DNA from: Mycoplasmataceae bacterium
GTDB lineage: Bacteria > Bacillota_I > Bacilli_A > Mycoplasmatales > Mycoplasmoidaceae
NCBI GenBank assembly: GCA_031257095.1
Contig: JAIRPI010000011.1
Span: 1-64,000, forward strand
Length of the DNA stretch: 64,000 nucleotides
Direction of reading: 5' to 3'
The notes beneath the pieces were generated by a model, which saw nothing but the letters and a program-made list of their open reading frames with translations, searched no databases and had not been told where the DNA came from. Shown here in pieces: positions 959-42,939 of this stretch. Position 1 is the stretch's first letter, and every line of letters begins with the position of its first letter. The translations under genes were made by a program, and so were the position numbers.

Positions 959-3313
959 ATGCGTATTTCCAAACAATTAATAGCTAAATATTTACCACAC
1001 ATTCATGAAATTGAAGATAAAGTTTTTATTGATGTTTGCAGTGCCATCGGGATAGAGGTTGAAAAAGTTATTACTCATCCTTTTACAAAGAATATTGTCG
1101 TTGGGCAAATAATTAGTATTGTTCAACACCCAAATGCTGAAAAATTATCGGTATGTCAAATTAATGTTGGTTCTAGTTTACCAACATTAACAATTGTTTG
1201 TGGTGCAAAAAATATTAATGTTAACAACAAAGTTGTTGTTGCTTTAGATTCATGTGTACTTTATAACGATAAAAAAATTATTAAAACTAAAATTCGTGAT
1301 GTTGAATCTGAAGGAATGTTGTGTGCATATTCAGAATTAACACCGCATAACCATGAATACTTATCATCAAGCGACGCTAATGGGGTGATTATTCTTGATG
1401 ATAGTGCAATTATTGGCGATACTAATCCAGCAAAATACATTGGCTTAGATGATACAATATACGAATTAACACTACCAAGTAATCGCAATGATCTTAATGG
1501 TGTAATTTCTTTTTGTCAAGATTTTGCCGCTTATATGAATCTACCATTTATTTGACCAGAAATTAATATTAACAAAGGTAGTTTTGCTAGCACACTTAAA
1601 ATTAATTTTGATCAACACATATGTAATGGATGCAGATTTCTACAAATCAAGAATATTAATAATTCGCCAACACCATGATTAATTAAAAAAGTGTTAATCA
1701 ATAATGGATGCAAGCCCGTTGAATCAATTGTTGATTATTTCTCATTCATTTCATTGTTAACCAATGTCCCAATGGCAATATATGATACTGAGAAATTGCC
1801 AGGTGAAGAAATTAATATATGTCTAGCAACAAAAGACAATAATTTTATTGGTTTCAATGATAAACAATATCAAATAGCCACTAATGATATTGTTGTATCG
1901 GCAAATAATAAGATTTTAAGTTTGGCTGGTATACTAGGGAATAAAGAGTATGGTGTTGATGATAAAACAAAAAATATTACGATAGAAATTGCCAACTTTT
2001 CATTTATCAACATCAGACAGACTAGCTCGCGTTTAAATATTAATACTGCCGCTGCTAAAAGTAATAGTAGGGAAATTTCGCCATATTTTATCGATTTAAC
2101 AACTACACTAATTTACAACATATTGAGCAATTATGAAATAAGTAATGTTGTTGGCGATGTTAATTTACCATCACCAACAACGATAGAAATTGATGCAAAG
2201 TTTATTTCTTCAATTATTGGGATGAATATAACAAACCAACATTTAGAACAGTTTCTTACTCGTTTTGGTTTTGTTATTAAAAATGAAATTTGTTATGTTC
2301 CGCTTCACCGCATCGATATAAAAAACAATCAAGATTTAGCGGAAGAGTTATTAAAACTAATAAATATTAACGACATTACAGCGGCTCCAATAATCGCTAA
2401 TGTTGAGAATGATCAAACCAATATCGAGTATAAACTAATTAGTAAAATTAGTAATTGATTAATCACTAATGGATGTTACGAAACTAAAACCTACAATTTA
2501 GTTTCTGAAAATAGATTAAGCAAGTTTAATATTTATCGTTATAGTAATTTTGTTAAAATTAGTAACGTAAATAATCAACAACGAGAATTCATGCGTACTA
2601 ATCTTATTGACCGTTTGCTTGATGTATATGCTAACAATGCCAAACGTAAAAATCCCTTAGTACCAATATTTGAGATTCAGGATATTTATACTAACACCAT
2701 AGAAAAAAACATAACCTTGCTTGTTCACGATAGTTTATTAATTGATCCACTATCTAAATCTAAAGTTTGCTATAACGTTAACTATTTAAAAATGTTAGTT
2801 AATAAAATTGCCAATATTTTAAATGCAGAAATTACTTACCAACCAATTAATGATAGTAATTTCTTCTACCCAAATGAGACACTTTGTATTACATATAATG
2901 GTGAAACCATCGGATATATTGGATTAATAAAAAAATCGCAACTTGCCGATTACGATTTAAAAAACAAGAACATTTATTGTTTGTCAATTAACATTACAAG
3001 GATGTTAACTAATTTTACGGACGATAAATTTAGTTATCAACAACCATCAAATTTAATGCCGATTATTAAAGATATATCTTTCCTAGTTCCTAATCGTTTC
3101 CGCTTAAATGATTTAATTGTCGCAATTAAAAACCTTCCATTTGTTCAATCAACTTTTTTTGTTGACCAATACGAAATTGATAACGATAACAAGTCCTACA
3201 CTTTACGGATTACTTTCAAAAATGATAAAGTTCTTACTTCAGAACAAATAACTAATTATTTAATCCAAATTGAACAAGTGGTTATAGAACACCACGTTAT
3301 TATTAGGAAATAG
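959..3313 (+). CDS. pheT: Phenylalanyl-tRNA synthetase beta subunit
   Basis: This is the 784-residue beta subunit of PheRS, which binds tRNA and carries the editing and B5 domains. The N-terminal tRNA-binding OB-fold domain is clear (residues about 40-150, including VVGQIISIVQHPNAEKLSVCQINVG read in parts). The C-terminus has the anticodon-binding FDX-ACB fold (SYTLRITFKNDKVLTSEQI). Two in-frame UGA codons (1553-1555 and 2456-2458) are read as Trp. The ATG at 959 directly follows the pheS stop. The last 11 bases overlap, tail to tail, the end of the alanine-dehydrogenase-like gene on the other strand. The length is typical of the family. Confidence 0.95.
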
Positions 3314-4442
3314 AAGAAAGGTTAGTATATTCTAAACGCAACGAAGTGGCGATATTTTTATTAGTAATTTTTTTACGATGTGTTAATGTCGCAGCTGATA
3401 AATATTTATGTTTTAAAATAGCTCCATCATTCTTAGTGTGATCACATTCTAATAAATAATCAGTGAGCAATTTACTAATTGCAACACTTATTGTTTGATT
3501 AAATAATGCTGGTACATTATCAAAAGCAAAGTGAGTAATATCATTGCCGACAAAACACGGTTTGTTAATTTTTGTCGGTCGTTTTTCATCGTCGCTTGAC
3601 ACGCCTTGGTCAATCGCAATATCAACAAACACTCCGCCTTTATTCATAGACGTAATCATTGGATTAGTAATTCTTTTTGAAGTTAATGAACCTGGCGTTG
3701 AGTTGGTATAAATTAACACATCACAACCAGCAATATATTGAGTAAGGTTACTATAATCAGCATTAACAATTTTTAGTTTTGCTTTATTTAATTTAGCAAG
3801 CTCATGTAGTATATGGTGTTGATGTACTTGATCTAACAAATTAGTGTTATTTTCTAAAATTGTTAAGTCAGCACCAAAGGATAATATAGTTTTTGCTGCT
3901 TCAATTCCAGCGTACGAAGCATTAACAACTACAAATTTAGCTGGACTTTCATTGTATGAAATTGAAGTAAATAATTTACCCATACCATTTTTGTTTAATT
4001 TAGAAAGATAATAGCAACCAAGAATTGCTGCAAACCTACCTTTGATTTGTTCGTTTGGTAATAAAATGGTATAAACTCCAGACTCATTAACTGCTTCAAT
4101 ACCAATTGCGGTAATATTATTTGTTAAGAATGAACGCAATGTTTTGGGGTTATTGGCAAGATTATAATGACCGATAATAATTTTATTGGCTAATAATTTA
4201 CTTTCATCACTTGTCGGTGCACTTAGTTTTAATAAAACTTGGCATGTTTCAATAAGTTTTTTATTATTAACAACAATTTTCGCACCTGCTTCGATATATT
4301 GCTTGTCAAGAAAATTATTGGCAACCCCCGCATTTGCACACACAAAAACTTCGTTTTTAGCTGCTACTAGGCGTTTAACATCATTGGGAGTAATTGCTAT
4401 TCTTAATTCAGTTTTATTTTCTTTTAATATCCCAATACGCAT
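3303..4442 (-). CDS. Alanine dehydrogenase-like protein with altered active site
   Basis: The 379-residue protein has the alanine dehydrogenase / transhydrogenase-alpha layout: an N-terminal MRIGILKENKTELRIAITP block, a central Rossmann region, and a late VDIAIDQG motif with the conserved Asp. Known alanine dehydrogenases interconvert pyruvate and alanine using NAD(H). By-eye alignment to the mycobacterial enzyme suggests that the catalytic Lys of LKVKEP is Ser here (LLKLSAP), that the catalytic His of FLHLA is shifted or replaced (GHYNLA), and that the GxGxxG nucleotide loop has become NASYAG. It may be inactive or have another role. No strong promoter box is obvious. It converges with pheT and overlaps it by 11 bp. 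Confidence 0.72.
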   Translation of the reverse strand: MRIGILKENKTELRIAITPNDVKRLVAAKNEVFVCANAGVANNFLDKQYIEAGAKIVVNNKKLIETCQVLLKLSAPTSDESKLLANKIIIGHYNLANNPKTLRSFLTNNITAIGIEAVNESGVYTILLPNEQIKGRFAAILGCYYLSKLNKNGMGKLFTSISYNESPAKFVVVNASYAGIEAAKTILSFGADLTILENNTNLLDQVHQHHILHELAKLNKAKLKIVNADYSNLTQYIAGCDVLIYTNSTPGSLTSKRITNPMITSMNKGGVFVDIAIDQGVSSDDEKRPTKINKPCFVGNDITHFAFDNVPALFNQTISVAISKLLTDYLLECDHTKNDGAILKHKYLSAATLTHRKKITNKNIATSLRLEYTNLSSIS

Positions 4443-4476
4443 AATATTTTTGTTAGATTAATTAAGTTGTGGCTAA

Positions 4477-40319: not shown

Positions 40320-40906
40320 TGAAAAAAGGGTTATTAATTATTATTAGTGGTCCAAGCGGGGTTGGCAAGGGAACGTTGTGAAAACCACTCATGCTTGATC
40401 CAAAATACAATTTAGCATATTCTATTTCAATGACAACAAGACCAATGCGTGAAGGTGAGGTTAATGGTAAGCAATATTTTTTCAAAACAAAAGCAGGTTT
40501 TAAAAAAGCAATTAAAGATGGTGAGTTGTTAGAGTATGCTACATATTGTGACAACTACTATGGGACACCAAAACATTACGTTGAACAATTACGTAATAAA
40601 GGGAAGAATGTATTATTAGAAATTGAAGTACAAGGTGCTATTGATGTTATGAAGTTTATGAAAAAACAAAAAGATCATAAGTTGTTAACTATTTTTGTTT
40701 TACCACCATCAAAAGATGAACTATTAGCACGTTTGAATAAACGAGGTACTGAATCAAAAGAAATCGTTCAACAGCGAATTACCACCGCAAAATTTGAATT
40801 AGCACAAGCCAAATATTATCAACACACAATAGTTAATGATGATATTACAAAAGCTCAGTCGCAATTGCGTGAGATTATTTCTAATGCTATAAACAATAAT
40901 GTCTAA
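40319..40906 (+). CDS. gmk: Guanylate kinase
   Basis: Gmk phosphorylates GMP to GDP. The 195-residue protein has the P-loop ISGPSGVGKGTLW (one UGA-Trp at its end), SMTTRPMREGEVNGKQYFF for GMP binding, and LLEIEVQGAIDVMK. Start ATG 40319 overlaps the ktrB stop. The 3' end overlaps rlmN by 8 bp. Confidence 0.95.
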
Positions 40907-41933
40907 ATCGTCAATATTTTCTTTTTCACTATCAGCATTAGAAAATCAATTAATTTCATTAAATCTTAAAAAACATAATGCTACCCAGATTTATAATTGA
41001 ATTTATCAAAAACATATTGATACATTTAGCAAAATGACAAATATTGCTAAATCTAGTCTTGATGTACTCGACGAAAATTTTAATATTAACAAATTAACAA
41101 TTGTTGATATGCAAATAGACCCAAATGACCAAACAACAAAATTTCTATTTCGTTTATGCGATGATAATTGTGTTGAAACGGTTTTAATGAAATTTGATTA
41201 TGGATATAGTGTTTGTGTTTCCACACAAGTAGGTTGTAATATGGGGTGTAAATTTTGTGCTTCTGGTTTACTAAAAAAGATTAGAGATTTAACCATTGAT
41301 GAGATGGTATTGCAAATATTACATGTAAAACAACATCTAAACAAATTAAATGGTCAACGATTAAATAACGTTGTCTTTATGGGCATAGGTGAACCATTTG
41401 ATAATTACAAAAATTTAACTGAGACAATTAAAATCATTAATGATGATCACGGTTTAGCTATTGGTAGTAGACATATTACTGTTTCTACCTGCGGGTTAGT
41501 AGATAAGATTATCTTATTTGCGCAAACATTTAAGCAAATTGGACTAGCGATATCCTTACATGCACCTAACGATGAACTACGAAATGAACTAATGCCAATT
41601 AATAAAAAATATAATTTAGCAAAATTAATGGATGTTTGTAAGCAATATATAAGGATTACAAACCGCCGGATTACTTTTGAATATGTGCTATTAAAAGGCA
41701 TTAATGATTCATTATTACACGCCCAGCAATTAAGCGCTTTATTAAAGAATATGTTATGTTATGTTAATTTAATTGTTTATAACAAAACAAAAATAAGTAA
41801 ATTTAGTAAATCGAATAATGCAAAATTATTTTTAGATTATTTGCTAAAGCACGGTGTCAACACAACAATTAGATTGGAACGAGGCAAAATAATTAATGCC
41901 GCATGTGGGCAATTACGCGCTAATAATTTATAG
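40899..41933 (+). CDS. rlmN: Radical-SAM 23S rRNA/tRNA adenine-C2 methyltransferase RlmN
   Basis: The 344-residue protein methylates A2503 of 23S rRNA and A37 of some tRNAs. The cluster motif is CNMGCKFCASG. The two extra cysteines needed by the mechanism are present: one in CVSTQVGC and the methyl-carrying Cys in NAACGQL near the C-terminus. Also seen are NVVFMGIGEPFDNY and ITVSTCGLVDKI. One UGA near the N-terminus is Trp. It is the last gene of the ktrB-gmk-rlmN operon; 194 bp of AT-rich DNA with no gene follow. Confidence 0.95.
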
Positions 41934-42113
41934 TATTTTAAATAATTTTGCTTTAAATCACACATCACAACGATAAAAAACTAAAAAAATATTTTCTATA
42001 GATATTAATAATGTTTGTGAAGCCAATATTTCCTATATATTCACACTTAACAATAATACAAAAAAGCAATTATTCTATTGTTAAAAAAGTTTTAACATAA
42101 GTTTAAAAAAGTA

Positions 42114-42119
42114 TATAAT
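42114..42119 (+). promoter_or_regulatory. -10 box for the NrdD-like mini-gene and exporter cluster
   Basis: TATAAT ends 8 nt before ATG 42128, with no SD. It is the only clear promoter before the run of closely spaced genes that ends at 46704. Confidence 0.5.
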
Positions 42120-42127
42120 GTAGTCAT

Positions 42128-42313
42128 ATGAAAAAGAGTAAAGCGACTGTTACTTATTTAAGTCCAACTGACAATAAGTGCCCTGTTTGTGGCTCAACAA
42201 ACATTCAATCTATTACAAGGGTAACTGGTTACCTATCTTTAGATGAAAGATTTGGTCCAGGAAAGGTTGCTGAACGTTCAGCACGAATTCCCCACGCTTC
42301 TGTAGCGAAGTAA
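42128..42313 (+). CDS. Free-standing NrdD-type glycyl-radical/zinc domain protein
   Basis: The 61-residue protein matches the C-terminal end of class III (anaerobic) ribonucleotide reductase NrdD: CPVCGSTNIQSITRVTGYLS then RFGPGKVAERSAR. In NrdD this end holds a four-Cys zinc site and the glycyl-radical residue in the RVxGYL motif; here that is Gly34, and only one CxxC pair (Cys18, Cys21) is kept. No larger nrdD frame precedes it, and it has its own start, promoter and stop. By analogy with GrcA/YfiD, which rescues damaged pyruvate formate-lyase, it might act as a spare radical domain; this is inference. Confidence 0.7.
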   Translation: MKKSKATVTYLSPTDNKCPVCGSTNIQSITRVTGYLSLDERFGPGKVAERSARIPHASVAK

Positions 42314-42315
42314 TA

Positions 42316-42939
42316 ATGAATAAAGCATGGTTGGGATTAGCCATTGCTGGGGGTGTGATATGCCTATCATCAATAATAGTTCCAACGATTTTATCAACAA
42401 CCATTTTAAATAATAACCACGATTACAATCGCGGTGTTAACTTGTTAAATATCCACGAAGGTGATGATTTATCTAATAAAGTGCTTCATTTTGATAAAAA
42501 CTATACATTACCTTATATAGCAAATGTAAATAAGAATGTGTGGGTGAGATGTGTAATTTACTTTTATGAAAGACCTAGTCTTCAATTCTATGCTGGCACA
42601 GCCAACAATAAGGGTGTGTTTGGCCAAGATGTTTGGGAAAGGGTCTTTGGAGATGTTGGAATTAATAAAGACGTTTTTAACACTTATCAGTTTGCAGCTT
42701 TTGTGGCAGTAATTGAAAATCAAGTTGATCCAAATAAATGTTGGTGTTTTTATACAAAAGACAAAACTAATCCAAACGCTGACCCAAAATGATTGCCAAA
42801 TAATAATGAGCGAACCGACACATTTACATTTCCACCCAACTCAAAAGTTGGCCAGCTAAAAGTTGCAATCGATGATTTTTCCGGTGCTGGGAATAAATTT
42901 TATAAATTTCTCGAGCACCAGATTGTTAAAAACCATTAA
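42316..42939 (+). CDS. N-terminally membrane-anchored extracytoplasmic protein
   Basis: The 207-residue protein has one N-terminal TM helix (WLGLAIAGGVICLSSIIVPT) and a soluble domain facing outward, with no recognised fold. That domain is rich in aromatic and Asn residues (VWVRCVIYFYERPSLQFYAG, PNKCWCFYTKD). One UGA is Trp. It begins 2 bp after the NrdD-like mini-gene and ends 5 bp before a lipoprotein gene, so it belongs to the exporter cluster. It may be an accessory surface protein of that transporter. Confidence 0.6.

Follow-up and report, generated by a model that had tools for sequence, protein, structure and literature searches.

A free-standing NrdD radical domain

The stretch of DNA analysed here (the window) comprises 64,000 nucleotides of a Mycoplasmataceae genome (GCA_031257095.1, contig JAIRPI010000011.1, positions 1 to 64,000) and carries, on its forward strand, a short open reading frame (ORF) at 42128..42313. 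The ORF is intact from ATG to TAA, contains zero TGA codons and encodes 61 amino acids (MKKSKATVTYLSPTDNKCPVCGSTNIQSITRVTGYLSLDERFGPGKVAERSARIPHASVAK) that correspond to the glycyl-radical domain of NrdD, the class III (anaerobic) ribonucleotide reductase (RNR). RNRs supply the cell with the building blocks of DNA. The ORF matched the end of the PF13597 (NRDD) profile (positions 518-562 of 562, 34.4 bits with a cut-off of 26.2, E = 1.3e-8) as well as the C-termini of TIGR02487 (E = 4e-11) and PRK07111 (E = 7e-13). NRDD was the sole glycyl-radical family matched, with no match in the ORF to PF01228, the Gly_radical family of the pyruvate formate-lyase (PFL) type. A chance ORF is ruled out by these family matches and by the conservation described below.

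In an alignment to Prevotella copri NrdD (8p23), the protein matched the end that bears the glycyl radical, with Gly34 opposite Gly711, the radical glycine of that enzyme (PMC11226230). Gly34 (codon 42227-42229), the predicted radical glycine, lies within an RVTGYLS loop (42218..42238), and is preceded by a CPVC motif (Cys18 and Cys21, 42179..42190), which represents the second CxxC of the structural zinc site. A sequence-only reading of this DNA had described just such a free-standing domain with its own start and stop and without the catalytic barrel, and this description holds: no NrdD barrel lies upstream or downstream of the ORF.

The same reading had assigned the gene its own promoter. 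A sigma-70-like sequence (TTAACA-16 nt-TATAAT, 42092..42119, forward strand) indeed ends 8 nt 5' of the ATG and agrees with the consensus at 11 of 12 positions, which suggests a separate promoter and a leaderless mRNA. At the threshold of the scan, 2.8 such sites per 600 bp are expected by chance, and the match alone is no proof of function. The ORF is flanked by rlmN (40899-41933) and by a membrane protein- or lipoprotein-like ORF (42316-42939).

The complementary barrel and the activase gene lie on other contigs

The genome is a metagenome-assembled genome (MAG) of a gut mycoplasma that reads TGA as tryptophan (664,759 bp, 27 contigs, about 83% complete). It contains exactly two NRDD matches, the ORF at 42128-42313 and a barrel on contig C6 that covers NRDD positions 1-522 (E = 7.9e-166). 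The 5' end of the barrel gene is lost at the contig edge. This large chain comprises the ATP-cone region, the NxN flap, a ten-stranded barrel that contains the two catalytic cysteines, and the first CxxC of the zinc site. Its C-terminus reads ...FHIRYCRDCASRANSSHNEEIFTQCK* (i.e., ...NYIGMNFHIRYCRDCASRANSSHNEEIFTQCK-stop), so that the chain stops 17 residues past the first zinc CxxC (YCRDC), and no radical domain is encoded in the sequence 3' of the stop. An assembly break was rejected as the origin of the two pieces, since the small ORF is situated 42 kb into a contig of 198 kb, and the barrel gene terminates at a stop codon of its own, followed by unrelated sequence.

A gene for the activase, nrdG, was identified on contig C25 (TIGR02491, 156 bits, above cut-off) and has an intact radical S-adenosylmethionine motif, CxxxCxxC. 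The genes for barrel, activase and domain are thereby scattered across three contigs. The genome search that the sequence-only reading had called for thus returned nrdG and an NrdD barrel that is truncated, not full-length. Neither of the outcomes it had named as contrary was found, these being a lack of nrdD or activase together with decay of the motif, and an nrdD pseudogene directly upstream in relatives. Close to nrdG is an ORF that, by eye, resembles formate-tetrahydrofolate ligase (L072:1959-2480 and 3097-4455); the link to formate may be coincidence.

No match to class I or class II RNR (PF02867) was found in the window genome or in any of the genomes of the genus (36/36). As far as the draft genomes show, the split NrdD is the sole detectable RNR.

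The cut falls between the two halves of the zinc site

In Clostridium, the source of the closest relatives outside the family, NrdD is one chain that reads ...GINFHIRYCRxCGTYLxxxxxKCPxCGSxxIQGISRVTGYLSLDERFG.... The mollicute barrel retains everything up to the CxxC, and the small protein begins with a new methionine and continues from (V)TYL...CPVCGS onward. The split therefore falls between CxxC and TYL, with no conserved motif lost. Judged by these alignments, the two pieces add up to one complete class III RNR, divided after its first zinc CxxC pair and before its second.

Each chain carries two of the zinc ligands, and all four cysteines and the glycine are invariant: C617 and C620 of the barrel CxxC in 18 aligned barrels, and the CPVC motif and the R, T, G and Y of the loop in all aligned free-standing domains. 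The pair noted as lost from the small protein is thus present in the genome, near the C-terminus of the barrel encoded on the other contig. Because a zinc site that is not needed should have lost one of its pairs, one zinc ion is probably held by both chains. Of the two options offered earlier, a differing or a shared site, sharing between two chains is the most likely.

The catalytic residues are equally preserved. The finger-loop cysteine C359, C143 on beta-1 and N88/N90 of the NxN flap are invariant in the 18 aligned barrels. C359 and C143 align with C416 and C171 of the P. copri enzyme, for which the roles of the barrel residues have been described (PMC11226230). An asparagine (the Asn of TIN) in place of the third cysteine corresponds to the formate-using pattern. 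A structure model of the barrel reached a predicted template modelling score (pTM) of 0.76, and its best matches in the PDB were P. copri NrdD. The two CxxC pairs and the R(V/I)TGYL loop by which a class III RNR is recognised are all present, divided over two proteins. Barrel and radical domain do not share one polypeptide, being encoded by separate genes in all members of the family that have this type of NrdD and whose ends were read.

The split is conserved throughout the genus

In 34 of the 36 genomes of the genus the domain has a gene to itself, confirming that short homologues are conserved, and 33 of those 34 also have a barrel. Domains missed by Pfam (G007, G008, G011, G012, G028, G030 and others) were recovered by an alignment-based search. 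In the 33 genomes with a barrel, its NRDD match ends at profile positions 516-535. All 32 barrel ends that were read (31 and that of G029) stop after the first CxxC, at a distance of 2-29 residues (31 measured). A further NrdD frame in G029 (G029:C2, L061), 729 aa long and free of TGA codons, is probably a contaminant from another bacterium. A second type of NrdD, full-length, occurs in G001 (L062) and G034 (L063) as frames of 565-582 aa with ..RRVSGYLE... Two genomes, G002 (85% complete) and G026 (90% complete), have neither domain nor barrel. Neither of the two gave any match to NrdD or to class I/II RNR; they may scavenge deoxynucleosides, or the genes may be absent from the assemblies.

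The order barrel-nrdG-domain was found in at least 13 genomes of the genus and also in G204, a member of a second genus in the same family. G003 has the domain gene first, 3 nt upstream of the barrel frame, indicating that gene order is free. In database records, the relatives fall among uncultured Mycoplasmataceae and "Ureaplasma" MAGs.

Other families of the order that have NrdD encode it as a single full-length chain, and relatives classified outside the family (mostly Clostridium, including phage) are fused in 59/59 cases. Among the matches listed from 392 genomes of the phylum, free-standing zinc-bearing domains of the NrdD type came from this genus only. In mollicutes that read TGA as an amino acid, some of the short NrdD frames arise where TGA codons interrupt an ordinary NrdD.

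Selection, co-divergence and origin

The ratio of nonsynonymous to synonymous substitution rates (dN/dS) of the domain gene was 0.03-0.06 for the four most closely related pairs, and another close pair, the fifth, gave 0.08. In more distant pairs the values were higher and saturated (median over 372 pairs, 0.30). Distances between domains followed those between barrels closely (Mantel r = 0.94; r = 0.88 without G003, G015 and G017; 0/2000 permutations each).

The barrels cluster with Clostridium-type NrdD and not with the NrdD of other mollicute families, a placement that suggests transfer followed by fission as the origin of the split enzyme. G003, G015 and G017 form a divergent trio with a distinct barrel and a domain (L057:2046-2318, L058:328-627, L171:1462-1710) that has a 15-residue insertion after GYLSFSE. 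The trio places outside Clostridium and the main split clade, and by the trees a single origin of the split is neither rejected (approximately unbiased test of one clade, p-AU 0.119) nor shown. No intact relatives of the trio were found at an E-value of 1e-100, which is too strict a threshold.

PFL is split in the same genome

PFL is split in the window genome as well, into a barrel on contig C3 (L198:1248-3401) and an overlapping gene for a 105-aa radical domain (L198:3343-3672). Across the genus, PFL is split in 22 of 36 genomes and fused in 8 (L199-L234), and the separate radical domain has 80-110 aa and may be adjacent or distant. Other Mycoplasmatales split PFL likewise, with the domain sometimes about 100 kb from the barrel. 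In many other Bacilli, PFL radical domains also occur in short frames, an apparent split. A solved structure of 687 residues, the "formate acetyltransferase" 38la, stops at the same point as the mollicute PFL barrel, so others may already be aware of split PFL. Nothing like 38la was found for NrdD. In Escherichia coli, a PflB in which the radical glycine is mutated (G734A) makes formate only if GrcA is present (PMC12338860). Together with the split PFL of the genus, this gives independent support for action in trans.

A lone radical domain in a phage

The 43-kb phage contig IMGVR_UViG_3300001598_000013 encodes a 52-aa NrdD radical domain (L235:10001-10156, PF13597 positions 519-562). No NrdD barrel or nrdG was found in the 39 of 43 kb examined. 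The contig reads TGA as tryptophan and carries genes for DNA polymerase, primase and reverse transcriptase (PHROGs) and a weak tape-measure match. The domain gene lies just 5' of the tape-measure-like gene, and 7-deazaguanine-like genes, identified by eye, are also present. A lone domain would most easily be useful to the phage if it worked with the barrel of the host. By analogy with T4 Y06I, which acts in trans on PFL (PMC8683613), it supports action in trans of the NrdD domain, and it is the nearest thing to a true spare part that we have seen.

A proposed two-chain anaerobic ribonucleotide reductase

We propose that the ORF encodes the radical subunit of a two-chain class III RNR, a subunit that acts in trans and is obligate for the enzyme (estimated probability about 0.88). 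The subunit is most likely required, because the sole NrdD barrel found has no radical domain, here as in the relatives read. The proposal draws on gene anatomy, the complementarity of the two chains, conservation across the genus, selection, co-divergence and the lack of a detectable class I/II RNR; complex formation, zinc sharing and catalysis are what it predicts. Several points weigh against it. The MAG is only about 83% complete, and an intact NrdD or a class I RNR could be missing from it. G001 has the domain with no barrel found, and both G001 and G034 carry the different, full-length NrdD. Finally, the AlphaFold model of the domain alone is of low confidence (predicted local distance difference test, pLDDT, 56), which fits a dependence on the partner and equally a shallow alignment.

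The sequence-only reading had suggested a possible spare part in the manner of GrcA. On this view, the domain would rescue an intact, oxygen-damaged NrdD that the assembly does not contain. GrcA (YfiD) and phage T4 Y06I do so for PFL (PMC8683613), PflB-G734A of E. coli works only with GrcA (PMC12338860), and both the incomplete genome and the lone phage domain leave room for such a role. We nevertheless consider it improbable. The barrel is present but truncated, in the window genome and in 31 further genomes of the genus whose barrel ends were read; in the barrel-nrdG-domain operons the domain replaces a missing end and is no addition to an intact enzyme; and among the genomes of the genus with NrdD that are at least 90% complete, none was found to have an intact version of this type. 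The spare-part role is thus unsupported, since the only NrdD barrel found has no radical domain to back up. A degenerate nrdD, a broken gene in the course of being lost, deserves still less credit and is rejected on the grounds of conservation. Mollicute genomes do shrink, and three genes over three contigs could be taken for decay, but the zinc and radical motifs are invariant, dN/dS in close pairs is 0.03-0.08, domain and barrel have diverged together, the identical split occurs in two genera, and no class I/II RNR match is available as a replacement.

Introns and inteins are common in RNR genes. Rejoining of the pieces by RNA trans-splicing or by a split intein, resulting in an ordinary one-chain NrdD, would accord with this background and is yet very improbable: no Rfam intron was detected at four loci, start and stop codons are normal in the two genes, gene order varies, and neither the tails of the barrels, at 2-29 aa, nor the N-termini of the domains, at no more than about 20 aa, are conserved or long enough for usual split inteins. 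An intron-interrupted nrdD was likewise rejected, with no Rfam match. We think it equally improbable that the small protein has another role, for example as an unrelated zinc-ribbon protein. Its weak matches to other zinc ribbons point that way, against which stand the retention of the whole glycine loop, the co-occurrence with a truncated barrel in 33/34 genomes and the location in an nrdG operon.

In the proposed two-chain enzyme, the chains would dock through the zinc site, to which each contributes two cysteines. The loop of the small chain would thread into the barrel and place Gly34 beside the finger-loop Cys359 of the large chain, and NrdG would install the radical on Gly34. Oxygen cleaves glycyl-radical enzymes at the glycine. 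More speculatively, with a detached domain the cell might replace a cleaved 7-kDa piece instead of a ~75-kDa enzyme. The same detachment in two glycyl-radical enzymes of one genome lends appeal to oxygen exchange, yet gene fissions could also arise and persist by drift when genomes are small. As a wider and rather doubtful possibility, both glycyl-radical enzymes of these Mollicutes, RNR and PFL, might run on exchangeable subunits, with oxygen costing the cell one small, quickly resynthesised protein, and phages might supply their own NrdD subunit from a gene of about 50 codons to drive the host barrel and make deoxynucleotides.

Comparison with known systems and significance

The mycoplasma enzyme shares with class III NrdD (P. 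copri 8p23, Clostridium, T4 1h7a) the barrel, the catalytic cysteine pair, the NxN flap, the ATP-cone region, the four zinc cysteines, the glycine loop, an NrdG-type activase and the formate-type pattern. It differs in being two proteins, with the radical glycine and half of the zinc site on a 61-residue chain. GrcA/YfiD and T4 Y06I are likewise free-standing glycyl-radical domains, whose action on a barrel in trans is known or predicted. Unlike GrcA/YfiD, the NrdD domain is of the zinc-ribbon type, is apparently required and no backup, and has no fused enzyme to rescue. YfiD has 127 aa with a long N-terminal extension, which the 61-aa NrdD domain lacks. The split PFL of Mollicutes has the same architecture in the same genome, but is a different enzyme without a zinc site and is more widespread, extending to other Mycoplasmatales and apparently other Bacilli. 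In the split class II RNR NrdJa/NrdJb, the C-terminal zinc-finger part is also a second chain (PMC9669993), but that enzyme is B12-dependent and has no glycyl radical. A literature search limited to open-access papers in PubMed Central turned up no previous description of a split NrdD.

In the glycyl-radical enzymes of the literature cited here, glycine and barrel share a chain, with GrcA, a repair part, as the exception. If our reading is true, a conserved RNR that relies on a domain acting in trans, and whose zinc site is apparently built by two chains, would show that this domain can be an exchangeable subunit of an essential enzyme, and whether detachment protects against oxygen becomes testable. 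In P. copri NrdD, the radical domain becomes disordered once dATP binds (PMC11226230). A natural two-part system would lend itself to asking how such dATP-driven release of the domain works and how NrdG reaches the glycine. Annotation pipelines would probably label the gene pair as a fragmented nrdD.
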